Shown here: positions 2,812 to 60,926 of the stretch, one piece after another
Layout of the letters: every line of letters begins with the position of its first letter
How positions within the stretch are numbered: position 1 is the first letter of the stretch
Origin: Mesorhizobium ventifaucium
GTDB lineage: Bacteria; Pseudomonadota; Alphaproteobacteria; Rhizobiales; Rhizobiaceae
DNA length: 64,000 nucleotides
NCBI RefSeq assembly: GCF_935822925.1
Contig: NZ_CAKXZS010000030.1
Coordinates: forward strand, 1 to 64,000
Direction: 5' to 3'
The notes under the pieces: generated by a model
Seen by the model: only the letters and a program-made list of their open reading frames with translations
Told to the model about the DNA's origin: nothing
Databases searched by the model: none
Position numbers and translations under genes: made by a program

Positions 2812-3645
2812 ATGACGCGCTGGCAGCTTGCTCATGGACGGCATCTCGATCTTGGCGCGAAATCGTTGCTGATGGGGATTTTGAACGTCACGCCGGACAG
2901 TTTTTCCGACGGCGGAGAATTCGACCGGCCGGAGCGGGCGCCCCAGCAGGCGCGGCGCATGATCGGCGAGGGCGCGGCGATCATCGATGTCGGCGGCGAA
3001 TCCACCCGGCCCGGCGCCGGCGCCGTTTCGGCGCGCGAGGAACAATCGCGCATCTTGCCGGTCATCGAGGCGCTGTCGTCCGACGGCGGCTGCCTGGTTT
3101 CGGTCGACACCTACAGGGCCGAGACGGCGCGGCTGGCGGTCGCGGCGGGCGCGCATATCGTCAACGACGTGCACGGCCTGCAGCGCGAACCCGACATCGC
3201 GCAGGTCGCGGCGGAAACCGGCGCCGGCCTCGTCATCATGCACACCGGGCGCGGCCGCGAAAAACTGGCGGATGTGATCGCCGACCAGTTCCTGTTCCTG
3301 AACAGATCGCTGGAGATCGCGCGCGGCGCCGGCATCCCGGACGATCGGATCGTGCTCGACCCCGGCTTCGCTTTCGCCAAGGACGGCGAAGAAAACCTCG
3401 AGCTCCTGGCTCGCTTCGGTGAATTGCGCGCGCTCGGTTTTCCATTGCTGGTCGGCACGTCACGCAAGCGCCTTGCCCATCACCTGGTCGGCGACGGTGA
3501 CGAAGGGCGGGACGTCGGCACAGCAGCAACAAGCGTCATCCTGCGGCTGAAGGGCGCTTCGATCTTTCGCGTGCACAATATCGCGGTCAATCGCGACGCA
3601 CTGGCATTCGCCGACGCGGTGCGCGAGCGCGAGACCGGGGAATAA
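2812..3645 (+). CDS. folP: Dihydropteroate synthase
   Basis: Dihydropteroate synthase, 277 residues, joining p-aminobenzoate to the pterin pyrophosphate in folate synthesis. It shows the two family signatures: GILNVTPDSFSDGG near residues 22-35 and IIDVGGESTRPGA near 58-70. Later TIM-barrel motifs include VDTYRAETAR, VNDVHGL, LDPGFAFAKD and LVGTSRKR. It is the only gene in this part on the plus strand and converges on pqqE with 95 bases between them. A separate, divergent DHPS-like protein is encoded at 41989-43383, so this copy is taken as the folate enzyme. Confidence 0.93.
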   Translation: MTRWQLAHGRHLDLGAKSLLMGILNVTPDSFSDGGEFDRPERAPQQARRMIGEGAAIIDVGGESTRPGAGAVSAREEQSRILPVIEALSSDGGCLVSVDTYRAETARLAVAAGAHIVNDVHGLQREPDIAQVAAETGAGLVIMHTGRGREKLADVIADQFLFLNRSLEIARGAGIPDDRIVLDPGFAFAKDGEENLELLARFGELRALGFPLLVGTSRKRLAHHLVGDGDEGRDVGTAATSVILRLKGASIFRVHNIAVNRDALAFADAVRERETGE

Positions 3646-3740
3646 TGCATGTCGCCCAAAAGTATGCCCTTGGGCCTGACCCGAGGGTGCGCAGCGGTTT
3701 TGGGATAACGACACGCATAACAACAAGAACTTCAGGCGCG

Positions 3741-4862
3741 TCAGGCGGGCTCGGTGACGACGCCGATCCGCCGGTAGACGAATTGTTCGTCGCTCGAAGG
3801 AACTGCCGCAGCACGCTGGGCTTCATCGATCAGCATGGCCATGCGCGCATGGATCGGCGATTTCGCGCAAGCCGGGTCCGTCGCGGCGGCGTCGCCGGCG
3901 ATCGCCATCGCCTGGCAGCGGCAGCCGCCCCAGTCGATCTCACGCCGTTCGCAACTGCGACAGGGCTGCTGCATCCAGTCGGTGCCGCGAAAGGCGTTGA
4001 ATGCCGGCGAATCAGTCCAGATTTCGGCCAGGCTGCGCGGTCCGAAACGCTCGAAGCTGAGCGACGGGATGGTCTGTGCGGCATGGCACGGCAGCACGGT
4101 GCCGTCTGGCGCCACCATGAAGGCGTCGCGCGCCCAGCCGCCCATGCACGGCTTGGGATAGATGGCGAAATAATCCGGCGTGACGAAATCGATGTTCATG
4201 ATGCCGGTCAGCCGTTCGCGCGCCGCCGCGACGATCTCCGCCTGACGGTCGACCGCAGCACGCTCGGGCATCAGTTGATCGCGATTGGTCAGCGCCCAGC
4301 CGGCATACTGCACGTTGGCGATCTCGAGCCGCTCCGCGCCCAGCGAAAGCGCCAGGTCGATGAATTCCGGCACCTCCTCGATGTTGTGGCGATGGATCGG
4401 CGCGTTGATGGTCAGCGGCAGGCCGGCCTTGCGGGCGCGGCGTGCCGTCTCCAGCTTCTTTTCGTGGCCGCCTTTGTGATTGCCGATGCGGTCGGTGGTC
4501 GTCGGCCGTGCGCCTTGAAAGCTCAGTTGCAGATGGTCGAGCCCGGCTTCGGCAAACGCCTCGATGCGGCCTTCGGCAATGCCGACGCCGGCGGTGATCA
4601 GGTTGGTGTAGACGCCGCGCGCCGAAAGCCCGGCGATCAATTGCTCGAGGTCGCGGCGCAGCGTCGGTTCACCGCCCGACAGATGCACCTGGAGAATGCC
4701 GAGATCGGCAGCCTGCGAGAACAGGTCGAGCCAGGTCTGTGTATCGAGTTCGCGATTGGCTTTCAGCAATTCGAGCGGATTGGAGCAATACGGGCATTGC
4801 AGCGGGCAGCGATGCGTCAGTTCCGCCAGCATGCCGATCGGAGGGAGAAGGGGCTCGCTCAT
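3741..4862 (-). CDS. pqqE: PQQ synthesis radical SAM protein PqqE
   Basis: PqqE, 373 residues, a radical S-adenosylmethionine enzyme that cross-links the Glu and Tyr side chains of the PqqA peptide. The 4Fe-4S motif CPLQCPYC (C19, C23, C26) lies near the N-terminus, followed by HLSGGEPTLRRDLEQLI. C-terminal SPASM-type cysteines appear in CMGGWARD, VLPCHAAQ, CRSCERREIDWGGCRCQA. The start at 4862 overlaps the pqqD stop by four bases (ATGA), which fixes it; upstream in-frame codons would lie inside pqqD. Last gene of the pqqABCDE run. Confidence 0.96.
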   Translation of the reverse strand: MSEPLLPPIGMLAELTHRCPLQCPYCSNPLELLKANRELDTQTWLDLFSQAADLGILQVHLSGGEPTLRRDLEQLIAGLSARGVYTNLITAGVGIAEGRIEAFAEAGLDHLQLSFQGARPTTTDRIGNHKGGHEKKLETARRARKAGLPLTINAPIHRHNIEEVPEFIDLALSLGAERLEIANVQYAGWALTNRDQLMPERAAVDRQAEIVAAARERLTGIMNIDFVTPDYFAIYPKPCMGGWARDAFMVAPDGTVLPCHAAQTIPSLSFERFGPRSLAEIWTDSPAFNAFRGTDWMQQPCRSCERREIDWGGCRCQAMAIAGDAAATDPACAKSPIHARMAMLIDEAQRAAAVPSSDEQFVYRRIGVVTEPA

Positions 4863-9426: not shown

Positions 9427-11325
9427 TCAATCCGGGAGGCCGAAGACGGTGAGCTGACCGCCCAGCGTCGTGTAGTCGGCAAGAGCGGCATAGCCGCCGA
9501 CCGCGCCAAGACCAGCCGTGGAGATGGACTTTTCCTCATCGGTCGGAGCTTTCTCACCCGCCACTGCCGTTTGCCAGGCTGCGGCGCCTTCGGCTCCCAA
9601 AAGGCCACCTGCGAGGCCGATGCCAGCCCAGCCACCGACACCCGACAGGACGGCTATATACTGCTTGCCGCCATGTTCGAAGGTGTTGACGTTGCCGATG
9701 ATGCCCGACGGCGTCTTGAACTTGTAGAGTTCTTTGCCTTCGGTATCGACGGCCTTGATGTAGCCTTCCAGCGTGCCGTAGAAGACCACATCGCCTTCGG
9801 TGGCAAGCGCGCCGGACCAGACCGAGAACTGCTCGGGCTTGGACCAAACGATCTCGCCCTTGGCCGCGTCCCAGGCGATGAAGTTGCCCATGCCGCCATG
9901 GCTGTTTGGCGTCGGGTACATCGCCACCGTCGCGCCGACATAGGGCTGGCCGGCGGTATAACTTACCTTGTAAGGCTCGTAGTCCATGCAGACATGGTTG
10001 GTCGGCACATAGAACAGTCCGGTCTTCGGCGAATAGGTCGCGGGCTGCTGGTCCTTGGTGCCAAGCGCGGCGGGGCAGATGCCCGTCGAGTTGGTGTCTT
10101 CGCCGTTCTGCTGGGTCGAATATTTGGCCACGACCTGCGGACGGCCATACTGGTCGCTGTTGGGGTCCATGTTGACCTCGGTCGCCCAATTCACCGTGGG
10201 ATCGTATTTCTTGGCGACGAGAAGCTCGCCATTGGCGCGATCCATGGTGTAGGCAAAGCCGTTGCGGTCGAAATGCACCAGCACGTCACGCTTGGCGCCG
10301 TTGATCTCCATGCCGTCGACGAGAATGTTCTCGTTGACGCCATCATAGTCCCACTCGTCATGCGGGGTCATCTGGTAGAGCCATTTGGCCACGCCGGTGT
10401 CGGCATCGCGCGCCATGAGCGTCATCGACCAGCGATTGTCACCCGGGCGCTGGACCGGGTTCCAGGTCGAGGGATTGCCGGTGCCATAGTAAACCAGGTT
10501 CAGCTTGGGATCATAAGCGAACCATCCCCAAGTCGTGCCGCCACCGGTTTTCCACTGCTCGCCCTCCCAGGTGTTGATGCCGGAATCCGGCCCAACGGGC
10601 TTGCCGAGATGAGTGGTCTTTTCCGGATCGATGAGCGTCTCTGCATCCGGACCGGTGGAATAAGCCTTCCAGGCAAGCGAGCCATCCTTGAGGTTATACG
10701 CCGCGGTCCAGCCGCGGACACCGAATTCAGCGCCTGAAACGCCGATGATGACCTTGTCCTTGACGACCATAGGCGCGGCTGTGCCGGATTCGCCCTTGCT
10801 GCCGTCGGTCTCGCCGTTCTTGACCGACCAGACGACCTTGCCGGTCTTGGCATCGAGCGCCACAACAGTCGTGTCGGCCTGGTTGAGGATGATCTTGCCG
10901 TCACCATAGGCGACGCCGCGATTGACCGTATCGCAGCACATGATCGCAATGACGTTCGGATCCTGCTTGGGCTCGTACTTCCAGAGGATCTTGCCTTCAT
11001 TGTTGAGGTCGAGAGCGTAGACGATATTCGGGAACGGCGTGTGGATATACATCACGTCGCCGATCACCAGCGGGCCGCCTTCATGGCCGCGCAGCACGCC
11101 AGTGGACATCGTCCACTTGACCTGCAGGTTCTTCACATTGTCCTTGTTGATCTGGTTCAGTTTCGAGTAACGGGTGTTGGCGTAATCACCCGTGGGCATT
11201 GCCCAGTTCTTGGCATCAGAGGCCATTTTCATCAGCTCTTCATTGGCCGACGTCATGTGGACCGCGCCGAACGACATGAGCGCCGCGGTCGTTAGTAGGT
11301 AGGCAGTTTTCGCTAATACACGCAT
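9427..11325 (-). CDS. xoxF: Lanthanide-dependent methanol dehydrogenase XoxF
   Basis: XoxF, 632 residues, a periplasmic PQQ enzyme oxidising methanol (and possibly formaldehyde). Signal peptide about residues 1-27 (ending MTSA). The adjacent disulfide Cys pair is at 130-131 ([10 protein letters not shown]). Metal and PQQ residues include Glu200 (SGAEFGV) and Asn284 (GTGNPSTW). The decisive motif [12 protein letters not shown] carries Asp326 (catalytic base) and Asp328, the extra Asp that marks lanthanide enzymes; calcium-type MxaF has Ala there. No mxaI-like small subunit was seen. Residues about 575-603, between GIGLAGG and GLGAVGG, form a segment roughly 25 residues longer than in XoxF sequences I remember. 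An upstream Met at 11346 is possible, but 11325 gives the signal peptide. Confidence 0.96.
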
Positions 11326-11997
11326 CAAAGTCCTCCCAGGGTGCACAATGACGAATCGTCCGTTGAGCCCACCAGGGCTTGCCCAAGCGATTCATGTGGG
11401 GGAAGTATTTCCGGCAGCGTGTCACGACCTAAGCCGAATGAGCAGAGGGCACCGTTACTGCCCATCCCACTTGGCCTACGAAAGACTGTCGCCGCTCCCT
11501 AATGACGGTGACGCCCTTGAAGCCGGAAACAGGATGAAGCTATGTCATCGCCAGACGGAAGGCAAGAAAAATCACTTCCGCTTATGTTGCACTGCAATAT
11601 AGAGAAATAGATGTGAAAAAGCCCGGACAGAAAGCTATTGATCGACTGTGGATGGAGCGAGATTTATATAAGTGGTTAAATTTTGCGTATTTTTCTGGCG
11701 AAATGTATTGATTTTTATTTGGGAATATTCGTTGGAGCGTGTGACTTTAAGTATGCGCGCGTCGCTCCCTGTGCCGATAGTGGAGCAGACATGAAATGAA
11801 GGTCAGCACCAGGATTCGGAGCGGATGTTGGTGCTGTCGGGGAGGCCTTTTGCCGGCCGGGACGGCCCTGTCCTTTGGTACTATATGGCCTGCACGAGAA
11901 CTTGACTGGCGTGGGTTCGCGAGGCCAACTGGTGCGGTGATCCGTCTCGATCCAGTGGGCTCGATCTGTCACGTTCCGGGCCAATCGGAGGTTCTCC
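11326..11997. other. 671-base intergenic region upstream of xoxF
   Basis: No gene was recognised. The part around 11600-11760 is clearly AT-richer than the surroundings, with runs such as ATTTATATAAGTGG and TTGATTTTTATTTGG. This is where the promoter of xoxF (reading left) and the promoter of the small exported gene at 11998 (reading right) must lie. A lanthanide-responsive promoter is a reasonable guess, but no operator was identified. Confidence 0.5.
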
Positions 11998-21747: not shown

Positions 21748-24341
<2,594 letters not shown>

Positions 24342-24355
24342 TTTTGGGGTCCTTC

Positions 24356-26362
24356 CTAGATGATGAGCTTCAGTGCCGCTGCGGCGACGGCTTCGGGCGT
24401 GACGTCGAAATGCCGGTAGAGATCCGGGGCAGGGGCGCTGGCGCCGAAACCGGCCATGCCGACGAAAGCGCCGGTGTCGCCGATCCAGCGGTCCCAGCCG
24501 AGCCGTGCCGCGGCTTCGACGGCAATGCGCGGCGCCGAGCCTAGGATGGCCTTTCGTATACCGGTATCCTGTTCCTCAAACAGCTCCCAGCACGGCATCG
24601 AGACGACCGCGGCGGCGATGCCGTGCTCGGTCTCCAGCCGTTCGGCGGCGGCGACGGCGATCTCGACCTCCGAGCCGGTGGCGATCAGCGTCACGGCGCG
24701 GTGCCCGGCCGGCTCGCGCAGGATGTAGGCGCCCTGGCTCGACCGGTTCTCGTCGCCGTGCGCTTGGCGCAGCATCGGCAGGTTCTGGCGCGAGAGCACC
24801 AGCACGCTCGGCCGGTTCTTGCTCTTCAGCGCCAGTTCCCAGCACTCCGCCGTTTCGATGATGTCTGCCGGCCGGAAGACGTTGAGGTTGGGCGTCGCCC
24901 GCAGCATCGCCAGGTGCTCGATCGGCTGATGGGTCGGGCCGTCCTCGCCGAGCCCGATGGAATCATGGGTCATCACATAGATGACGCGCTGGCCCATCAG
25001 CGCCGAGAGCCGCATCGCGCCGCGCGCATAGTCGGCGAAGCACAGGAAGGTGCCGCCATAAGGCACGAAGCCGCCATGCAGCGCGATGCCGTTCATGGCC
25101 GCGGCCATGCCATGCTCGCGGATGCCGTAGTGGATGTAGCGGCCGGCATAGGCACCAGGCGCTATGCGATCCATGCCCTTGGTCATCGTCAGGTTCGAAT
25201 GCGTCAGATCGGCGGAGCCGCCGACGGTCAGCTCGGTTGCCGCGTTGATGGCGCCGAGCGCCATTTCGGAGGCTTTTCGCGTTGCGACCTTGGTCGCCTT
25301 TTCGACATGCTCCTTGCGGAAAGCGCCGAGCGCTTCGAAGACCGCGTCGGGCAGGGTGCCGGCGACCGCGCGCTCGAAGGCCTGGCGCTGCGGCGAGGCG
25401 GCAAGCCGCTGCTCCCAAGCGTGCCGCGCTGCTTGCCCGCGCTCGGCAATTTCGCGCCAGGCGAAAAGGATGTCGTCCGGCACCTCGAACGGCGCGCAGG
25501 CCCAGCCGATGTTCTCGCGCGTCGCGGCGATCTCGGCATCGCCCAGCGGTGCGCCATGCGTCTTTTCCGAGCCGCCCAGATTGGGCGCGCCCTTGCCGAT
25601 CACCGTGCGGCAGGCGATCAGGGACGGCCGGTCCGACTGCTGCGCCACTTCGATTGCCGCAGCCACGGCTTCCAAATCGTGGCCGTCCACCGACTGGACA
25701 TGCCATCCAGCGGCTTCGAACCGGGCCGGCTGGTTCATCGACGTCGACAGCGACGTCGGTCCGTCGATCGAGATCGCATTGTCGTCCCAGAAGACGATCA
25801 GCCGGGCGAGCTTCAGGTGACCGGCAAAGTCGATCGCCTCATGGCTGATGCCTTCCTGCAGGCAGCCGTCGCCGGCGATTACGTAGGTGAAATGGTCGAC
25901 GAGATCGGCGCAGTGGCGGGCGGCAAGCATGCGCTCGGCTAGCGCCATGCCGACGGCGGTCGAGATGCCTTGTCCAAGCGGACCGGTCGTCGCCTCGATG
26001 CCAAGCGCATGGCCATATTCGGGATGTCCGGCGGTGCGGCTGCCCAACTGGCGAAACCGCTGCAATTGCTCGATCGGCATATCTTCGTAGCCGAGCAGGT
26101 AGTGCAGCGCATATTGCAGCATCGAGCCGTGCCCGGCCGAAAGCACGAAGCGGTCGCGATCGGGCCAGCTGGGCGCCGACGGATCGATGTTGATGAAGCG
26201 GCCGAACAGCACCGTCGCGACGTCGGCCATGCCCATCGGCATGCCCGGATGACCGGAGTTGGCCTTCTGGACGCTGTCCATCGCCAATGCGCGAATGGCG
26301 TTCGCCATGTCGCGCTCCGAGACGGCGGCGACGGGCTTCAGGGCTGCTGCTTGGCTGTTCAT
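24356..26362 (-). CDS. tkt: Transketolase
   Basis: Transketolase (cbbT), 668 residues, thiamine-diphosphate-dependent transfer of two-carbon units in the Calvin and pentose-phosphate cycles. Motifs are [19 protein letters not shown] at the N-terminus, [13 protein letters not shown] with [10 protein letters not shown] (ThDP-binding), FRIREHGM-like sequence [14 protein letters not shown], and [18 protein letters not shown]. Start 26362 is preferred; an in-frame Met at 26383 adds seven residues. Separated by 10 bases from the phosphoribulokinase gene upstream. Confidence 0.97.
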
Positions 26363-26372
26363 GGCGTCCTCC

Positions 26373-27245
26373 TCACGACACACGGTTCTTGCGTTCGATC
26401 AATTGCAGGATGAGCGGCGTCAGGATCAGCTGCATGGCAAGGTCGAGCTTGTTGCCTGGCACCACTATGGAATTCGGCCGCGACATGAAGGAGTCGTGGA
26501 TCATCGAAAGCAGGTAGGGGAAATCGATGCCGCGGGGATTGGCGAAGCGGATGACCAGCATCGATTCGTCGGGCGTCGGAATCCAGCGCGCGATGAACGG
26601 GTTGGACGTGTCGACGATCGGCACGCGCTGGAAGTTGATGGCGGTCTGCGAGAATTGCGGGACGATGTAGCGGACATAGTCCGGCATGCGGCGCAGGATG
26701 ACGTCCATCACCGCCTCGGTGGAATAGCCGCGGGTTGCCCGGTCGCGATGGATCTTCTGGATCCATTCGAGATTTATGACCGGCACCACGCCGATCCTGA
26801 GGTCGGCGTGCCGGGCCAGGTCTATCTTGTCGGTGACGACGCAGCCATGCAGGCCCTCGTAGAAGAGCAGGTCGCTCGGCGGGAATTCGCGCCATTCGGT
26901 AAAATGGCCCGGCGGCGTGCCGTACTGCTTCTCCTCGTCCTCGTCATGGATGTAGGTGCGGGTCTTTCCGGTTCCGCGGCGCCCATATTCCTCAAACACC
27001 TCTTCGAGGATTGCGAGTTCGTTGGCCTCGGCATGAAAGTGGGTGAAGTTCGGATTGCCGGCCTTCTCCTGCTCGGCCACCTTGACCTTCATCGTGGCGC
27101 GGTCGTAGCGGTGAAAGGCATCGCCTTCGATGAAGGCGGCGTCGATGTTCTCGCGCCGGAAGATCAGCTCGAAGATGCGTTTGACCGAGGTGGTGCCGGC
27201 GCCCGACGACCCGGTGATGGTGATGATGGGGTGCTTTGCCGACAT
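26373..27245 (-). CDS. cbbP: Phosphoribulokinase
   Basis: Phosphoribulokinase, 290 residues, ATP-dependent synthesis of ribulose 1,5-bisphosphate, a committed Calvin-cycle enzyme. The P-loop is [14 protein letters not shown]. Further family features are [15 protein letters not shown]-like [10 protein letters not shown], and the [15 protein letters not shown] segment. Five bases separate it from the fructose bisphosphatase gene upstream. Confidence 0.97.
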
Positions 27246-27250
27246 GATGC

Positions 27251-28312
27251 TCAGGCCCTGAACAGGCCGCGGCGGCTGAACAGCGGCGCACGCTCGCCGA
27301 TCGCGCTGGGCTCGATGTGGTAGCGAGTGATGCGCGCGACTTCGCGTGCCGATCCGAACACCACGGGCACGCGCTGGTGCAGGCTCTCGGGTTCGATTTC
27401 TAGGATGCGGGTGATCGTGTCGGTGGCGGCGCCGCCCGCCTGTTCGATGAGATAGGCGATCGGGTTGGCCTCATAGACGAGGCGCAGCCGTCCCTGGCGG
27501 TAACCCTTGCGCTTGTCGCCTGGATACAGGAATACGCCGCCGCGCATCAATATGCGGTAGCAGTCGGCGACCAGGGAGGCGATCCAGCGCATGTTGAAGT
27601 CCTTTCCGCGTGGGCCTTCGGTGCCTTCGAGGCAGTCGTCGATGTAGAGCCGCACCGCCTCGTCCCAATGCCGGTAGTTGGCGGCATTGATGGCGAACTC
27701 CTGGGTACGCTGCGGGATGATCCGGCTCTCGTAGGCCTGGACGAAAGTGCCGAGCCTGGTCGAGAGAACGAAGACATGCGTGCCGCTGCCGAGCGACAGA
27801 ACCAGCGCCAGCTGCGGCCCGTAGATGAAGAAACCGGCGCCCAGCTGGTTCACGCCTGCCTGCAAAAAAGCGGCGGCCGGATTTTTGTCCGGCGCGCCAG
27901 TTGCAGGGAGGCCAGCTGCAGGGAGGAGCGAGAAGATCGTTCCGATCGACACGTTGGTATCGATGTTGGAAGAGCCGTCGAGCGGGTCGATGGCGATGGC
28001 GAGAGGCGCCTGGCTGTCGAGCAGGACCGGCTGCTCCAGTTCTTCGGAGGCATAGAGCGCGACCGGAGCGTGGCGCATGGCGTCGAGGAAGATGTCGTCG
28101 GCGAAGATGTCGAGATCCTTCTGGATGTCGCCGTCGGCATTGGCGCTGCGGGTCCCGGCAAAGGCGGCGCCGAGCACCCCCTGATTGATGGTGTTGCGGA
28201 CCTTGGTGGCGGCCTGCGTCAGCTGACGGACGGTGGCGACGACCGCGGAACGCAGTTCGTCGGGCGGGCCGAGATAGGAATTCAGAAATGCGTCGAGCGT
28301 TGCCGCTGGCAT
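27251..28312 (-). CDS. cbbF: Fructose-1,6-bisphosphatase class I
   Basis: Fructose 1,6-bisphosphatase (class I), 353 residues, first gene of the cbb operon. The metal and substrate motif IAIDPLDGSSNIDTNVSIGTIF is intact, as is FLYPGDKRKGYRQGRLRLVYEA near the C-terminus. Start 28312 is fixed by GGGAGGTTACG just upstream. A 15-base tandem duplication (27898-27927) adds five residues (LPAAG then LPATG) just after the active-site motif; the frame is kept. Divergent from cbbR across a 119-base operator region. Confidence 0.96.
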   Translation of the reverse strand: MPAATLDAFLNSYLGPPDELRSAVVATVRQLTQAATKVRNTINQGVLGAAFAGTRSANADGDIQKDLDIFADDIFLDAMRHAPVALYASEELEQPVLLDSQAPLAIAIDPLDGSSNIDTNVSIGTIFSLLPAAGLPATGAPDKNPAAAFLQAGVNQLGAGFFIYGPQLALVLSLGSGTHVFVLSTRLGTFVQAYESRIIPQRTQEFAINAANYRHWDEAVRLYIDDCLEGTEGPRGKDFNMRWIASLVADCYRILMRGGVFLYPGDKRKGYRQGRLRLVYEANPIAYLIEQAGGAATDTITRILEIEPESLHQRVPVVFGSAREVARITRYHIEPSAIGERAPLFSRRGLFRA

Positions 28313-28379
28313 CGTAACCTCCCGATCCAGCCGCAACTCCTCCGGCCGAATTGGGGAATGAGAACAAACGGCGTGAGAT

Positions 28380-39374: not shown

Positions 39375-39599
39375 CGATAAAATTACCCGTTCTTGCGCTA
39401 AAGTCCGATTGTTGTCGGACCGGCGCAAAGTCAAGGTGCCCATGATGAGCTTAGCTGACCCGCAAATTTTTTCAAATCCTGAAAGTGGACTTCTCCTGTC
39501 TGCTTTAGTGCCGTGCGTGCTCGCCGGAACGGCAACCGAGCGGAAGTCGGTATTCAGGCCCAAGAACGTGCTGTCCCTCATGCTGGAGAAAGTCCTCCA

Positions 39600-41441
39600 A
39601 TGACCAGAATGCTGGCCAGCGTCACCGGCGTCGACGAGGCGGAGATCGCGCTTTCAGGCGGCGTCGACATCGTCGACCTGAAGGATCCGAAGGCGGGAGC
39701 GCTGGGCGCGGTGTCCACGCAGACCATCCGCCGGACGATTTCGCTGATCGCCGGCCGGGCTCCGGTCAGCGCCGTCAGCGGCGACCTGCCGATGGAGCCC
39801 GAGACGATCCGCGCCAAGGCCGAAGAGATCGCCGGAACCGGCGTCGATTACGTCAAGATAGGCCTGTTTCCGTCGGCAAATGTCGCCGCTTGCGCGGCGG
39901 CGCTCGAGCCGCTCGCCGCGCGAACGAAACTCATCGCGGTGCTTTTCGCCGACCTGGCGCCGGATTTCGAGCTTCTGCCGATACTTGCCAAACATCGCTT
40001 CCATGGCGCCATGGTGGACACTGCGAACAAGTCCAACGGGCGGCTGCTCGACCATCTGCCGCCCGAGCGTATCCCGGGATTCGTCGATCGAGGCAAGTCG
40101 CTCGGTCTCATGGTTGGGCTGAGCGGATCGCTGGAAGCCCCTGATATTCCGCGCCTGCTGCCCTTCCTTCCCGATTTTCTCGGCTTTCGCGGGGCGCTGT
40201 GCGGCCACTCCGACCGCGTGGGTTCGATCAGCGCCGAGGCGGTTGCGCAGATCCGCGACTTGATCCCGGAAGCATCCCGGGCCGGCGGCGCGTCGAGCGT
40301 CGACTACCGCCTGCTGGCGGCGAGGGGCTATTCGCCGGGCACCGACCCGACACTGGGCACCGACAAGATCTTCGTGCGGGACTTTGTCCTGCCGGTCCAG
40401 ATCGGCGCCTACAGTTTTGAGCACGGCCATACCCAAAAAGTGCGTTTCGACGTGACCGCCGACGTGCTGCAAGTCACCGACCATCCCGAAGACATGCGCC
40501 ACGTGTTCTCCTACGACATCATCATGGACGGCATTCGCACCATTGTTGCGCGGGGCCACATCCAGCTTAGCGAGGCCCTGGCCGAGCAGGTGGCGACCTA
40601 CATTCTGGAGAACCCGCGTGTCGTGCGTGTCACGGTAAGGGTGGAAAAACTCGAACTCGGCCCAGGCGGCGTCGGCGTCGAGATCGAACGCAAGCGCCAA
40701 TCGGCTGGCCGCGGCGTCGCCTCCGGGCCTGCCGGCCGAAAAGGCCAAGGCGCTGTTTCCCAGCCGCGACAAGAAAGACCCGAAGTCATCAGGCGCGCCA
40801 TCGCCAAGCGAGCCGTCGTCAAGCTTGGCGGCAGCACGGCCGATGCGGCGGAAATGGCGGACTGGATCGCGGCGCTGGCGGGTTCCAAGCTGCCGATCGT
40901 CATCGTGCCCGGCGGCGGCCGCTTTGCCGACCAGGTGCGCGAGACGCAGATTTACATGGATTTTTCCGACACCGCCGCCCACGCCATGGCGATCCTCGCC
41001 ATGGAGCAGTTCGCCCAGATCATCCTCGACCGTGACGAAAGGCTCGCGCCGGCACGGTCGCTGGAAGAAATGCTGCGAGCCCTGGACGCGGGCACGGTCC
41101 CGGTGTGGCTACCGTCGTCATTGGCGCTGCCGGCGCCGGACATTCCGGCGTCCTGGGACGTTACCTCCGATTCGCTTGCCGCCTGGCTTGCCGGCAAGCT
41201 CGGCGCCAATGCGCTGCTCTTGATCAAGCAGACCGGCGCCTTCTCCGGCAGCGACACGATCGACAGCCTGGCGGCCAGAGGCATCGTCGACGCCGGCTTC
41301 GCCGCCATGCTGCCCGACGGTGTCGATGTCCATCTCGCCGGCCCGAAAGATGCCGCCGAGGCCGGGGCGCTGTTCGCGGCGGGCAATCTGCCCGGCATTC
41401 CGATCGCAGCCCCTGTCCGGTCGGCAAGAAAAGCAGGGTAG
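39600..41441 (+). CDS. Three-domain fusion: MfnB-like, FolB-like, amino-acid-kinase-like
   Basis: A 613-residue protein with three enzyme domains in one frame. Residues 1-235 match (5-formylfuran-3-yl)methyl phosphate synthase (MfnB), with the two lysines expected for Schiff-base chemistry: Lys28 in DIVDLKDPKAGALGA and Lys86 in VDYVKIGLF. Residues 254-366 match dihydroneopterin aldolase (FolB): FVRDFVLPVQIGAYSFEHGH, ending with Lys350 in VTVRVEKLELG. Residues 400-613 match the amino-acid kinase fold (AVVKLGGST, IVIVPGGGRFAD), like MfnE. Residues 367-398 form a Gly/Arg/Gln linker. Together they would serve methanofuran and H4MPT synthesis. Start 39600 is the MfnB N-terminus with GGAG upstream. 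Whether this fusion is common is not known to me. Four bases separate it from the next gene. Confidence 0.88.
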   Translation: MTRMLASVTGVDEAEIALSGGVDIVDLKDPKAGALGAVSTQTIRRTISLIAGRAPVSAVSGDLPMEPETIRAKAEEIAGTGVDYVKIGLFPSANVAACAAALEPLAARTKLIAVLFADLAPDFELLPILAKHRFHGAMVDTANKSNGRLLDHLPPERIPGFVDRGKSLGLMVGLSGSLEAPDIPRLLPFLPDFLGFRGALCGHSDRVGSISAEAVAQIRDLIPEASRAGGASSVDYRLLAARGYSPGTDPTLGTDKIFVRDFVLPVQIGAYSFEHGHTQKVRFDVTADVLQVTDHPEDMRHVFSYDIIMDGIRTIVARGHIQLSEALAEQVATYILENPRVVRVTVRVEKLELGPGGVGVEIERKRQSAGRGVASGPAGRKGQGAVSQPRQERPEVIRRAIAKRAVVKLGGSTADAAEMADWIAALAGSKLPIVIVPGGGRFADQVRETQIYMDFSDTAAHAMAILAMEQFAQIILDRDERLAPARSLEEMLRALDAGTVPVWLPSSLALPAPDIPASWDVTSDSLAAWLAGKLGANALLLIKQTGAFSGSDTIDSLAARGIVDAGFAAMLPDGVDVHLAGPKDAAEAGALFAAGNLPGIPIAAPVRSARKAG

Positions 41442-41444
41442 GCG

Positions 41445-41996
41445 ATGGCGACGCTGCATACGCCGCGCTGGGCATGGGTTTTGACCGGTTCCGGTCATTT
41501 TTTTACGGAGAGCTTCGCACTCATTCATCAGATCGAGCATTGCGATGTCTTCGTCTCGAAAGCCGCCAACGAAGTGCTGCGCATGTACAAGCTCAAGCTC
41601 GATTTCCCGGAGACGACGCGCGTGCTGCACGACAAGTCGGCGAGCGCGATCCCGGTCGGCGAATTCTATCACGGCGTCTATCATACGGTGGTGGTGGCGC
41701 CGGCCAGTTCCAACACCGTCGCCAAATGCGTGCACGGCATTTCCGACACGCTCGCTACCAACGTTTTTGCCCAGGCCGGAAAATGCCGGGTGCCGGCCAT
41801 CGTTTTTGCCTGCGACACCGCGCCGGAACTCGAAACCATGGCGCCGCATGGGCTGGTCAAGGTCTATCCGCGCAGGATCGACCTGGAGAATACCGACCAG
41901 CTGAAGAGTTTTGAGCGAACCCAGGTGGTCGAGTCGCTTGCCGATCTCGAAGCCTCGGTCAGGCGGCGCCACGCCGAACTCGCAAGCCATGGCTGA
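41445..41996 (+). CDS. Flavoprotein (AfpA-like) of the H4MPT cluster
   Basis: A 183-residue protein of the flavoprotein (PF02441) fold, similar to archaeoflavoprotein AfpA and to dihydromethanopterin-reductase-like proteins. It opens WAWVLTGSGHFFTESFALI and has the FMN-binding ASSN element in VVVAPASSNTVAKCVHGI. In methylotrophs such genes sit in H4MPT clusters and may reduce a pterin or serve cofactor synthesis. It begins 4 bases after the fusion gene and overlaps the next gene by eight bases. Confidence 0.87.
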   Translation: MATLHTPRWAWVLTGSGHFFTESFALIHQIEHCDVFVSKAANEVLRMYKLKLDFPETTRVLHDKSASAIPVGEFYHGVYHTVVVAPASSNTVAKCVHGISDTLATNVFAQAGKCRVPAIVFACDTAPELETMAPHGLVKVYPRRIDLENTDQLKSFERTQVVESLADLEASVRRRHAELASHG

Positions 41997-43383
41997 GCGG
42001 CTGGTCTTTCTTACCGGCCATCTGGCCAGGGTCCGGCTGAAAAGGCTGCTGGCCGGACTTGGTCAAACCGAATTTGCCTGGGAGATCATCGATATCGGCG
42101 TCAAGGTCGCGGCGCTGATGAGCGAAGACATCATCAAGCGGCGACTCACCCTGACGGGCGGCATCGACCGCGTCATCCTGCCCGGCCGCTATCGCGGCGA
42201 CATCGAGCATCTGTCGGAGCATTTCGGCGTGCCCTTCATACGCGGACCCGACGAGATCGCCGATCTGCCGGCCTTTCTCGGCCGGGCGGGCGAGCCGCCT
42301 GACCTTTCGCGTCACAGCATGCGCATCTTCGCCGAGATCGTCGACGCGCCAATGCTGTCGATCGAGGCGCTGGTGGCGAGAGCACGGACGCTGGCTGCGG
42401 CCGGCGCCGACGTCATCGATCTCGGCTGCCTGCCGGAAACACCGTTTCCACTGCTGGAAGAGGCCGTGCTCGAGCTGAAGGCACAGGGATTTCTGGTCAG
42501 CGTCGATTCGGCCAGCACCGACGAACTGTCGATCGGCGCACGCGCCGGTGCGGACTATCTTCTCAGCCTCGATGAGAAGACGCTGCCCTTGGCCTTCGAT
42601 TGCAAGGCCGTGCCAGTGCTGATCCCGTCCGCACCCGGCGACCTGGATTCGCTTGGCCGGGCCATCGAAGTGGCACAGAAGGCCGGCGTCGCCTTCATCG
42701 CCGATCCGGTGCTCGACCCGATCCATTTCGGCTTTGCCGCCTCACTCGGGCGCTTCATCGAGGCGCGCCGCCGCTGGCCTGAGGTCGAACTGCTGATGGG
42801 CACCGGCAATCTCACCGAATTGACCGATGCCGACAGTTCCGGCGTTACCGCGGTTCTGGCCGGGCTCTGCTCGGAGCTTCAGATCCAAAACGTGCTTGCC
42901 GTGCATGTCAGCCCGCACACGCTGCGAACGATCGAGGAGCACGACATTGCCCGCCGCATCCTGTTTGCCGCCAAGAGTGACGGTGCGCTGCCGCGAAGTT
43001 ACCATCCAGGGCTGCTGCAGGTTCACGACCGCAAGCCGTTCACCGCCTCGACCGGGGATATCGAAGCACTGGCGGCCGAGGTGCGCGACACCAACTTCCG
43101 CATCATGACCGCCGAGGACGGCATCCATGTTTTCAACGGCAAGGGGCACGCGGTTGCCACGGATGCGTTCGAACTGTTTGCCGGGCTTGGCGTTGAGGCG
43201 GATGGCGCGCATGCGTTCTATCTCGGAGCGGAACTGATGAAGGCCGAGATCGCGTGGCGCCTCGGCAAGCGCTATGTGCAGGACGAGCCGCTCGCATGGG
43301 GCGTTGCCGCGCCGGCTCCCGAAACCGACCGCAGCCGTCTTGCCGAAGCGGGCCACACGCTTCGCGCGAAGAAAGAGCGCTAA
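41989..43383 (+). CDS. Dihydropteroate-synthase-like protein (DUF6513 type)
   Basis: A 464-residue protein with an N-terminal methylotroph-specific domain (MAERLVFLTGHLARVRLKRL) and a DHPS-like TIM barrel (AAAGADVIDLGCLPETPF, FLVSVDSASTDEL, ADPVLDPIHFGF, LLMGTGNLTELTDADSSG). It is thought to form the pterin-to-RFAP bond or a related step in H4MPT synthesis. The canonical folate-type DHPS is encoded at 2812. Start 41989 overlaps the upstream gene by eight bases; four bases separate it from the next gene. Confidence 0.88.
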   Translation: MAERLVFLTGHLARVRLKRLLAGLGQTEFAWEIIDIGVKVAALMSEDIIKRRLTLTGGIDRVILPGRYRGDIEHLSEHFGVPFIRGPDEIADLPAFLGRAGEPPDLSRHSMRIFAEIVDAPMLSIEALVARARTLAAAGADVIDLGCLPETPFPLLEEAVLELKAQGFLVSVDSASTDELSIGARAGADYLLSLDEKTLPLAFDCKAVPVLIPSAPGDLDSLGRAIEVAQKAGVAFIADPVLDPIHFGFAASLGRFIEARRRWPEVELLMGTGNLTELTDADSSGVTAVLAGLCSELQIQNVLAVHVSPHTLRTIEEHDIARRILFAAKSDGALPRSYHPGLLQVHDRKPFTASTGDIEALAAEVRDTNFRIMTAEDGIHVFNGKGHAVATDAFELFAGLGVEADGAHAFYLGAELMKAEIAWRLGKRYVQDEPLAWGVAAPAPETDRSRLAEAGHTLRAKKER

Positions 43384-43386
43384 ACC

Positions 43387-43977
43387 ATGCCCTACATCAG
43401 CGAATCGATCATCACCACCGTCAACAAGGCCGGCGACGTCCACATCGCGCCGATCGGCATCATCGCCGAGAAGGACGGCTGGGTCATCGCGCCGTTCCGG
43501 CCGTCGATCACGCTCGACAATCTCGCCGAAGTGCCGTGCGCCATCGCCAATTACACCGATGACGTCCGCATCTTTGCCGGCTGCCTGACTGGCCGCAAGC
43601 ATTGGCCAACCGTTGCGGTAAACGGGTTTCCGGTGCCGCGGCTCGAGGCGGCGCTCGCGCATTCGGTGCTCGAAGTCAAAAGTGTCGATGACGATGCTAT
43701 GCGACCTCGCCATTTCTGCCGCGTGGTGCAGGAGGAAACGCATGCGCCGTTCACCGGCTTCAACCGCGCCAAGGCGGCGGTGCTGGAGCTAGCCATACTG
43801 GTCAGCCGCCTCGGCATGCTGCCACGCGACAAGATCGAGGCGGAAATCGCCTACCTTTCGATAGCCATCGAAAAGACCGCGGGCGAGGGCGAAAAGGAAG
43901 CCTGGGACTGGCTGATGCAGCGCGTCGGCGAGCACCTGTCGGTCCAGGAGTCGCACGGCGACGAGGTGCGGGGTTGA
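43387..43977 (+). CDS. DUF447-family flavin-binding-type protein
   Basis: A 196-residue protein of the DUF447 group, an FMN-binding split-barrel fold. It begins PYISESIITTVNKAGDVHIAPIG and has GWVIAPFRPSITLDNL and NYTDDVRIFAGCLTGRKHW. Such genes occur with H4MPT and methanogen cofactor genes; no reaction is proven. Start is four bases after the previous stop. Last intact gene of this half of the cluster; the next 10 kb is a decayed accessory region. Confidence 0.86.
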   Translation: MPYISESIITTVNKAGDVHIAPIGIIAEKDGWVIAPFRPSITLDNLAEVPCAIANYTDDVRIFAGCLTGRKHWPTVAVNGFPVPRLEAALAHSVLEVKSVDDDAMRPRHFCRVVQEETHAPFTGFNRAKAAVLELAILVSRLGMLPRDKIEAEIAYLSIAIEKTAGEGEKEAWDWLMQRVGEHLSVQESHGDEVRG

Positions 43978-58824: not shown

Positions 58825-59781
58825 CTAACCGAGGCTCCGTTCGAGCATCTGCAGATCACGCTCGCCGGCGCGAAACGTATCGCCGGTCTCGATCGCCGTG
58901 ACGATCACTTCGGCCGGGCTGAACAGCAGCGGATCGATGGCATAGAAATCACCCTTGAACCGCTTGAAGATTTCGGCGAAGGGGTGGCCGTGGTCGCGCG
59001 AGGCGCGGCTCGGCAATCGCTCCGCGAGCTCGCTGGCGTCTTTCGACGAGCCTTTTACGAAGAGCTGGACGCTGCCGCCATAGATGATGGCGTCGTTGGT
59101 TCTGCCCATGGCGGTCAGGAAATCCGGATGGGGGGCGGGGATAGGCGCCGTGCCGATGCCGTCGACAACGTTCTCCAGCGGAAATTTGAGATCGTTGGTC
59201 TTGTGCAGGGCAACCTCGAGCGCGCGCGCAACGATCTGCACGCCGCCGGCCAGGCTTTGTGTCGGCGCATAGAGAAAGGTGAGCTTTTCGGGTGCCAGTC
59301 CGGTTGCCCTGCCGACCTTCTCGACGATCGTTCGGGGCGGCGGTTCGGCGGTCTCCAGGATCAGCACGGCGGACGACGCAGTATCGCGATAGGAGAGTGT
59401 TTCGAACAGCGGTTCGACGCGGGCGAGCGCCCGCGCCGGTCCCGATCCCATGGCGAAATAGCCCTGGCTCGACAGGTTCCAGCCCGCATACTGGCTGCCC
59501 AGGCAGGCAAGCACCGGCTGCGAGGACCGCACTTCAACGGTGAACGGCCATTTTTGTGACCCACGGTCCATGCACACCGAGATGCTGCCGAGGCCGCCCA
59601 TCGCGGCTTCCGCCATGCGCAGCCCGGCCTCGACGCCGCCGCCGGCCTTGGCGCCGGCATCGATCAGGCACTCACCCAATGGCCCCCTGGAAACGCCGAT
59701 ACGCAGGCGTTCGGCGTCGCCGATCATGCCATCGATGATGCGCTGCGCATTGTCGTTGAGGAATGCCGAACCGTCTTTCAT
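58825..59781 (-). CDS. mch: Methenyl-H4MPT cyclohydrolase
   Basis: Mch, 318 residues, hydrolysing methenyl-H4MPT to formyl-H4MPT. Family motifs are LRIGVSRGPLGECLIDAGAK, GGLGSISVCM, LACLGSQYAGWNLS, FAMGSGPARAL and MGRTNDAIIYGGSVQLFV. Start 59781 follows a ribosome site (GGAGACCGG) and overlaps the upstream ATP-grasp gene stop by four bases. Works between MtdB and the Fhc complex. Confidence 0.96.
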   Translation of the reverse strand: MKDGSAFLNDNAQRIIDGMIGDAERLRIGVSRGPLGECLIDAGAKAGGGVEAGLRMAEAAMGGLGSISVCMDRGSQKWPFTVEVRSSQPVLACLGSQYAGWNLSSQGYFAMGSGPARALARVEPLFETLSYRDTASSAVLILETAEPPPRTIVEKVGRATGLAPEKLTFLYAPTQSLAGGVQIVARALEVALHKTNDLKFPLENVVDGIGTAPIPAPHPDFLTAMGRTNDAIIYGGSVQLFVKGSSKDASELAERLPSRASRDHGHPFAEIFKRFKGDFYAIDPLLFSPAEVIVTAIETGDTFRAGERDLQMLERSLG

Positions 59782-60926
59782 GTCCGGTCTCCTTCCCATT
59801 GGTGTTGCAATCGGCTGGCTTGTCCCTTGATCAGCCGCCTGGTCAGATCGGCGCTCGCACCGCGCGCGAAGATGGTGCAGACCGGATCGCCGGCAATCAG
59901 ACGGGTGCCGGGCGACTGATGGTCGGCAGTCCATTCAGGCCAGGCAATCGATGGAAAGCGGGCGATCGGCGCCGCCGCGTAGGTCACCATCGACGCCATC
60001 GAATCGACGAAGCGCGGCAGACGGTAGGCCTTGCCTGCCGCGGCGCGCAGATGCGCTTCGATCAGCGGGGCGTCGGCATCGTCGAAAATGTCGAGCGTGG
60101 CGCCGGGCCTCGGATTGATCTCGATGAGCTTGTAGCCATCCGGTCCGCGAATGAGATCGGCGCTGCACAACCCAACCAGGCCCGCGCGGCGCGCCAGACC
60201 TGAAAGCCAGCCGCGGATCATCGCCGCCTGTCTGCGATCGAAGCGCCTCAACCGCACGGCGCCGCCATAGCGATAGGGCGCTGCCGGGGCGGGGGACGCC
60301 CATTGCTGGCTGAAGCCGACGATATCAGCGGTTTTGCCGTCGCCGACGAACAGGGCCGAGATGCTGCGGCCGGCAACGAAGCGCTGGAAATAGCGGCCGC
60401 TAGGAGCCTTACTCTGTAATACCGAGGTTTCTCCGGCGGCCCGTGTGATATGCGCGCCGCCGGCGCCGCCCGCGGTCTTGACCACCCAGTTCTCCGGATC
60501 GGGCGGCGGGTCCCATCGGAATTCGGGATGCGGAATGCCGAGTTCGGCGCAATCGGCTGCCAGCAATTGCGGGTCCTTGATCCTGCGGATCGCGGCGCCG
60601 CTGTTGCCGGCGAGCGGAAAATGGCGCGCGATCTCGTCGACGGTCTCTGTCATCCGCTCGAAGCCCGAGCCCAGGACGATGGCGACCGGCTGGTCGTCTC
60701 CAGCCAGTTGCCGAAGCGTCTCGACGATGCGCTCGCCGTCGATGCCGCCCTGCAGGTCGCCCGGCAGCATCGTCGCGCGCTCGGCAAGCGCCACCGTGTC
60801 GGTATCGCAAAAGAAATCGGCTACCAGCGGACGATAGAAGGCGCGGCGCGCAGCGGCAGCCAGCGCCCGGCCTGAAATCGCCGCGATCAGGAGAGATCCG
60901 GCGCTATTTGGCGGTCTCGCGTGCAA
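59778..60926 (-). CDS. ATP-grasp protein of the H4MPT cluster
   Basis: A 382-residue ATP-grasp protein of the type that accompanies mtdB and mch in methylotrophs. Motifs are KTAGGAGGAHITRAAG, RYFQRFVAGRSISALFVGDG and LIRGPDGYKLIEINPRPGAT, the metal-binding end. It may ligate an amino acid in methanofuran or H4MPT synthesis (MfnD-like role possible). It overlaps mtdB by 23 bases at its start and mch by four at its end, so the three are one transcription unit. Confidence 0.88.
   Translation of the reverse strand: MHARPPNSAGSLLIAAISGRALAAAARRAFYRPLVADFFCDTDTVALAERATMLPGDLQGGIDGERIVETLRQLAGDDQPVAIVLGSGFERMTETVDEIARHFPLAGNSGAAIRRIKDPQLLAADCAELGIPHPEFRWDPPPDPENWVVKTAGGAGGAHITRAAGETSVLQSKAPSGRYFQRFVAGRSISALFVGDGKTADIVGFSQQWASPAPAAPYRYGGAVRLRRFDRRQAAMIRGWLSGLARRAGLVGLCSADLIRGPDGYKLIEINPRPGATLDIFDDADAPLIEAHLRAAAGKAYRLPRFVDSMASMVTYAAAPIARFPSIAWPEWTADHQSPGTRLIAGDPVCTIFARGASADLTRRLIKGQASRLQHQWEGDRT

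Follow-up and report, generated by a model that had tools for sequence, protein, structure and literature searches.

An MfnB-FolB-MfnE triple fusion in Mesorhizobium, a putative collapsed methylotrophy operon

MfnB and MfnE, two enzymes of the bacterial methylofuran pathway, are homologous to Orf22 and Orf21; for the aminotransferase step between theirs, no bacterial enzyme is known according to the accessible sections of the source (PMC8141765). In the MfnB protein MJ1099, Lys155 is described as a substrate-binding residue in the part of the study available (PMC11365854). Dihydroneopterin aldolase (FolB) of E. coli is an octamer in which each active site is formed by two neighbouring subunits, and its residues Glu21, Tyr53, Glu73 and Lys98 bind the pterin or carry proton wires (PMC4176595, available portion). 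A Methylosinus island has the order orf19-orf20-afpA-orf21-orf22 (PMC3615186), and a furan synthase, an aspartate kinase and a dihydroneopterin aldolase are among the coding regions of a Burkholderia symbiosis region (PMC9088363), as far as the accessible text of these two papers goes. In the portion of the literature on methylofuran, H4MPT, MfnB and dihydroneopterin aldolase that was covered, no description of the fusions reported below was found, and an earlier mention is possible; neither "folB" nor "dihydroneopterin" occurs in the main text of PMC4921024, which surveys gene fusions in metabolism.

The triple-fusion gene and its surroundings

The window, that is, the whole stretch of 64,000 nucleotides of Mesorhizobium ventifaucium (a soil bacterium with root-nodule symbionts among its relatives) that was analysed, contains a single frame translated as 613 residues. 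The original prediction had placed three enzymes in it, and Pfam indeed finds MfnB, FolB and an amino-acid kinase in that order, each matching a solved structure.

39585 to 39588, forward strand: GGAG, a possible ribosome-binding site of the ATG at 39600, picked out by eye
39600 to 41441, forward strand: mfnB-folB-mfnE triple-fusion gene, 613 amino acids followed by TAG
39609 to 40253, forward strand: MfnB domain (methylofuran ring synthase), residues 4-218, PF04476, structure 4rc1, with K28, D140 and K144
40368 to 40688, forward strand: FolB domain (dihydroneopterin aldolase), residues 257-363, PF02152, with E274, Y305, E325 and K350
40698 to 40805, forward strand: linker 2, between FolB and MfnE, with no in-frame ATG, GTG or TTG, dN/dS 0.40 and low pLDDT
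40806 to 41375, forward strand: MfnE-like kinase domain (furan phosphate kinase), residues ~403-592, PF00696, structure 7qrh, model pLDDT 91

A longer in-frame ORF of 642 amino acids begins at GTG 39513; homologous matches start at ATG 39600. The Pfam scores exceed the curated cut-offs for PF04476 (224.3 bits vs 22.4), PF02152 (61.5 vs 31.8) and PF00696, matched over residues 403-544 (45.8 vs 24.9). Against NCBIfam, all three parts stay under the cut-off: MfnB scores 275.2 against NF002576 (cut-off 297; a model that bears the name "hypothetical protein"), FolB 47.3 against the folB equivalog TIGR00525 (72.15) and MfnE 68.1 against the equivalog NF040622 (300). The domain names therefore rest on Pfam, fold, residues and context, and that of FolB on its fold, its residues and the copy number in relatives.

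The residues K28, D140 and K144 align with Lys27, Asp151 and Lys155 of MJ1099, of which we take the first two to have active-site roles; both Schiff-base lysines predicted for MfnB (K28 and K144) are thus present, in addition to D140. In the FolB part, E274, Y305, E325 and K350 align with Glu21, Tyr53, Glu73 and Lys98 of Yersinia/E. coli FolB once a chain offset of 24 residues is subtracted, so that the catalytic Glu and Lys positions expected there are accompanied by the Tyr and a second Glu. A sequence search of solved structures returned MJ1099/MfnB (6.4e-25), 7qrh (2.4e-15) and the dihydroneopterin aldolase 3v9o (1.1e-09), 7qrh being the best match of the kinase part among kinases. Structure prediction, which had been proposed as a check, gave a full-length AlphaFold2 model whose fold matches 4rc1/4u9p first (MfnB, TM 0.83-0.86 of target) and FolB structures next. 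Its mean pLDDT is 70.8, with MfnB confident, FolB fair and MfnE poor, probably because alignment rows were misplaced in the last domain (20% identity). MfnE was accordingly judged from a separate model (pLDDT 91), whose first fold match is 7qrh, the MfnE of Methanococcus vannielii (2.0e-12); the nearest kinase is thus the same by sequence and by fold, as expected of an MfnE-like third domain. A second protein of the genome (L002 1501-1980, G000:C1), 30% identical to the MfnE part, is perhaps another amino-acid kinase.

Since one frame change could make or break such a frame, an assembly or sequencing artefact has to be considered. It is practically ruled out, as separate assemblies agree: all 18 fetched named loci of the triple clade form one frame, with no stop or frame change between the domains, the observation that had been named as speaking against the prediction. 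Seventeen are full length, one (L126) ends at its contig end, and one (L106) comes from a complete genome, that of M. ciceri biovar biserrulae WSM1271. The closest named locus to the window protein is that of Mesorhizobium escarrei (95% identical).

Several genes of C1 metabolism lie downstream.

41445 to 41996, forward strand: DmrB-like flavoprotein, the next operon gene, PF02441 (TIGR02700 below cut-off), starting three bases past the triple-fusion stop
41986 to 43383, forward strand: DUF6513/TIGR00284 dihydropteroate-synthase-like protein, with a start codon of our choosing (an in-frame TTG stands at 41911)
43387 to 43977, forward strand: DUF447 protein
58825 to 59934, reverse strand: Mch, methenyl-H4MPT cyclohydrolase, PF02289
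60904 to 61797, reverse strand: methylene-H4MPT dehydrogenase-like protein (Mpt_N), PF09176

These five neighbours mark an H4MPT/methylofuran island, and the first three are annotated in the same order in Phyllobacterium zundukense. The window also encodes ATP-grasp proteins and a GHMP kinase, as well as a Pterin_bind protein of the FolP type (3e-73; 2812-3645, forward strand) besides the dihydropteroate-synthase-like protein listed above. RuBisCO, phosphoribulokinase and other Calvin-cycle genes (21748-28336) and a PQQ-domain dehydrogenase (9427-11346) accompany the island, a set that would suit the oxidation of methanol together with CO2 fixation.

Distribution, origin and selection

How often the fusion occurs was tabulated in several samples. 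Scanning a collection with one genome per species yielded 46 named loci: 18 with the triple fusion, 20 with an MfnB-FolB double fusion and a separate MfnE, and 8 unfused. In the genus sample, 8 of 61 genomes carry a fused FolB. An even sample of the order has PF04476 in 92 of 397 genomes, of which 76 are unfused, 13 have MfnB-FolB, 2 the triple fusion and 1 MfnB-MfnE; two genomes counted among the 13 (G133 and G337) may owe their frame to stop-free gaps or errors, and a third, G102, is spread over more than one contig. Outside the order, FolB was absent from the MfnB frame in 20 PF04476 genomes of the class and phylum samples, where flanks were about 1.5 kb or less. The homologues are therefore not always encoded separately, an outcome that would have counted against the prediction: the triple clade has its 18 fused loci, and outside it MfnE is a gene of its own. 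Two odd frames were also seen. The MfnB-MfnE protein (G144, L191 ~3036-4442) is a 765-codon frame without FolB and with ~144 extra bases inside MfnB; in Sinorhizobium sp. BG8 (L346 ~2842-4169) the frame shifts within the MfnB part and FolB is whole, through error or decay.

The arrangement of the genes in relatives suggests how the fusion arose. Two families (f2 and f31) have mfnB, folB and mfnE as three unfused genes, arranged in this same order. At the joint of the double-fusion loci, the TGA of FolB is overlapped over 4 bases by an NTG, a possible start codon, in the MfnE frame at 15 of the 17 named loci checked (L122, L123 and L125 of the 20 were left out), an overlap annotated as such in P. 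zundukense and strain T1293; the two Aurantimonas loci differ, and G151 (L062) has a different kind of overlap. In the triple-clade loci inspected, this TGA is lost and the frame differs, with 33 to 39 residues lying between one domain match and the next. The linker of M. ciceri keeps an in-frame ATG near the kinase, and that of the window has no usual start codon.

An MfnB tree built from 125 rows places the triple fusion in one clade (support 99), which requires one change and is nested in an all-fused clade of 31 rows (support 94). Fused versus single takes 4 changes in total, the other fused rows being G133, G337 and G448; G102 and G144 were not included, and the places of G448, G105 and G267, on long or open branches, are unsure. 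Independent MfnB-FolB fusions in f31 (G133 and G337) were considered and dropped, as these may be stop-free gaps or errors: the FolB start region of G133 lies in another frame than in its relatives, and G337 keeps the native N-terminus of FolB.

Judging from these gene arrangements, the triple-fusion protein appears to be a collapsed operon. Its source would be a piece of the "archaeal-like" methylotrophy operon in which mfnB, folB and mfnE adjoin in that order; MfnB and FolB would have fused within the Hyphomicrobiales, and MfnE would later have been added in Mesorhizobium, when the folB/mfnE joint lost its stop codon and shifted frame. The gene order in relatives and the stop/start overlap explain the link through the collapse of neighbouring genes. 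The physical connection of the furan and pterin branches in one chain, as originally predicted, is thus confirmed, but it needs no coupling of the pathways. The prediction was also incomplete, because the triple fusion has a single origin, in Mesorhizobium, within an older MfnB-FolB fusion.

Among 13 triple-fusion sequences, dN/dS is 0.16 for MfnB, 0.06 for FolB and 0.25 for MfnE; the linkers have 0.22 and 0.40, and the tail has 0.55. All three domains are under purifying selection. In the double group, whose proteins end earlier, the rows for linker 2, MfnE and tail were dropped, and the ratios there and in the Phyllobacterium pairs are rough, dS being near or beyond 1.

FolB copies, folate supply and genomes without Mch

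The number of FolB copies differs between the two architectures. All 16 triple-fusion named genomes counted have two FolB matches, of which one is fused and the other occupies a frame of 120 codons, and all 20 double-fusion ones have a single match, the fused one (36 of 38 fused loci; L101 and L109 left out). In the order sample, one match was likewise found in 13/13 double-fusion genomes, many of the double-fusion genomes in these counts being drafts. Among the 77 remaining MfnB genomes, which served as a control (76 unfused and the one MfnB-MfnE), 69 also have one match, so that a single copy is usual and the triple clade departs from this. A lone FolB is thus not peculiar to the fusions, and the agreement of copy number with architecture tracks a single split of the tree and hence few events. 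The ordinary FolB occurs in 61/61 genomes of the genus sample, with or without a fused copy; in G030, the only locus inspected, it is flanked by FolP and FolK, and it falls in a different FolB clade from the fused copy in a tree of 118 columns only.

The original prediction had assigned the aldolase to the pterin branch. This probably holds for H4MPT, but the domain is unlikely to serve H4MPT only, as it is the sole FolB found in the double-fusion relatives. A bypass through PTPS-III in these genomes was rejected: no PTPS match was found in 12 of the 28 double-fusion genomes searched, and the 22 PTPS sequences obtained, which come from 17 genomes (G000 and 16 with the double fusion), all lack Glu at the place of the PTPS Cys, the feature that we take to mark PTPS-III. 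Because the fused FolB is the only one found there and no such bypass was seen, it probably makes the pterin for folate as well as for H4MPT in the double-fusion species. In the triple-fusion genomes, where an ordinary FolB is present, folate synthesis may not need the fused copy; since that copy is not decaying despite the second FolB, a role in H4MPT synthesis is favoured.

Mch gives no match in 15 of the 92 MfnB genomes of the order sample. At least one of K28, D140 and K144 is lost in 14 of these 15, and all three are kept in the 76/76 assessable Mch-positive genomes, G102, split across contigs, being left out of the count; Fisher tests on these numbers ignore kinship. Three of the Mch-negative genomes carry MfnB-FolB fusions: G309 (K28 to T), G267 (K28 to E) and G448 (triad kept). 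The FolB residues of G309 and G267 are intact, and no other FolB was found in either. A separate degenerate MfnB-like gene lies near folB in G105 and in eleven genomes of genus g102, which also lack Mch, at a distance of ~490 bases in the latter; two alignments give different replacement letters for the g102 triad, and its loss in both. In G260, of the same genus, Mch is present and the triad intact.

Loci of g102 with the degenerate MfnB-like gene (11): L252, L256, L258, L192, L193, L302, L303, L305, L306, L308 and L310

In addition, two Phyllobacterium plasmids carry a dead MfnB joined to a FolB with intact residues, beside fae and without MfnE (L091 6001-7101, L092 6001-7113). In strain T1293 a different plasmid carries a live double fusion, which indicates that the dead copy there is a second copy and not a leftover of loss. 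For the two dead copies, dN/dS is 0.19 in MfnB and 0.013 in FolB, compared with 0.06 and 0.014 in a live pair (dS high in both); selection on the dead MfnB copies is relaxed, not neutral. In the genomes where Mch is missing, FolB is kept, sometimes joined to a dead MfnB.

Putative function of the fusion and comparison with known systems

It is probable, in our judgement, that the protein is a collapsed operon of three enzymes that would work independently in one chain and in equal amounts, its FolB serving H4MPT and, in the double-fusion relatives, folate too. MfnB would make the furan phosphate, MfnE would phosphorylate aminomethylfuran phosphate later in that pathway, and FolB would cleave dihydroneopterin to 6-hydroxymethyldihydropterin for H4MPT. 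Because the active sites of E. coli FolB lie between subunits and are shared by them, the fused FolB should need assembly to work, and the chain should assemble through a FolB ring, which would bear MfnB and MfnE. MfnB and MfnE had been predicted to act in one pathway; both are furan enzymes, but they are not consecutive, an aminotransferase step standing between them in the accessible part of the source (PMC8141765). As FolB, moreover, belongs to another branch, the fusion is most simply explained by adjacent, overlapping genes that collapsed into one.

Coupling of furan and pterin synthesis through the fusion is possible. That channelling or co-assembly joins the supply of the two coenzymes, and that the fusion was selected for this, would agree with the constraint on every domain and with the retention of the fusion in 18/18 clade loci and of MfnB-FolB across several families; we nevertheless regard it as unlikely, given that the joint is already explained by gene order and overlap, that 76 of the 92 order-sample MfnB genomes are unfused, and that FolB works in a different pathway from MfnB and MfnE, whose steps do not follow one another in the available text of PMC8141765. 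The presence of an ordinary FolB, with two matches in 16/16 triple-fusion genomes, might alternatively make the fused FolB of Mesorhizobium a passenger or mere structural spacer, which we hold to be quite improbable because it is the most constrained domain (dN/dS 0.06) and keeps all four residues. Its location between two furan enzymes, and a bacterial aminotransferase step without assigned enzyme (PMC8141765, same portion), could even suggest that the FolB-like domain acts in the furan branch between MfnB and MfnE rather than on pterins. This was considered and found highly unlikely: every FolB row examined retains all four residues of the pterin site, the domain is the sole FolB found in double-fusion genomes, it is intact where Mch is gone and MfnB dead, and the FolB fold is no transaminase.

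Beyond the collapsed operon, we put forward more tentatively, as something that may well not hold, that FolB has become locked into a methylotrophy protein, that a dead MfnB then serves as its structural carrier, and that the triple fusion is the furthest stage, a ring with both furan enzymes. If so, the C1 operon could not be freely lost in double-fusion Hyphomicrobiales, where the only dihydroneopterin aldolase hangs on a furan synthase, and after loss of the H4MPT pathway a dead furan synthase would survive as the structurally needed carrier of a folate enzyme. Enzymes of two archaeal-type C1 coenzymes stand in one chain, with folate probably tied in among sister lineages. Questions that become testable are what makes a folate enzyme accompany the methylotrophy genes, whether folate production suffers when the C1 operon is lost, and whether a protein can retain a catalytically dead domain because it carries one that is needed.

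RefSeq already contains double-fusion proteins, named after one domain. Annotators should be warned that names are misplaced in Phyllobacterium, where the MfnE kinase is called "dihydroneopterin aldolase" (L090 10194-10832; L348 4167-4802) and the FolB domain is in the preceding CDS, named furan synthase.

Compared with known systems, the first domain resembles MfnB (4-HFC-P synthase; MJ1099, PDB 4rc1 and 4u9p; Methylorubrum Orf22) over the whole domain, in fold and in the K27/D151/K155 equivalents; MJ1099 and Orf22 are free-standing proteins, whereas the MfnB of the window is part of a fusion. The second shares its fold and the Glu21/Tyr53/Glu73/Lys98 equivalents with FolB structures (PDB 3v9o, 3r2e, 2o90 and 1dhn), but the known FolB is a free-standing octamer (PMC4176595, available portion) and that of the window an internal domain within a methylotrophy operon. 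For the C-terminal domain, the nearest kinase is MfnE (aminomethylfuran-methyl-phosphate kinase; PDB 7qrh; Orf21), a separate protein in the archaeon and in most of the MfnB genomes seen. Also close is the MfnB-FolB double fusion found in Phyllobacterium, Pseudaminobacter, Aurantimonas and others, which has the first two domains in the same order as the window protein and, where annotated, the same operon, with MfnE as a separate gene.
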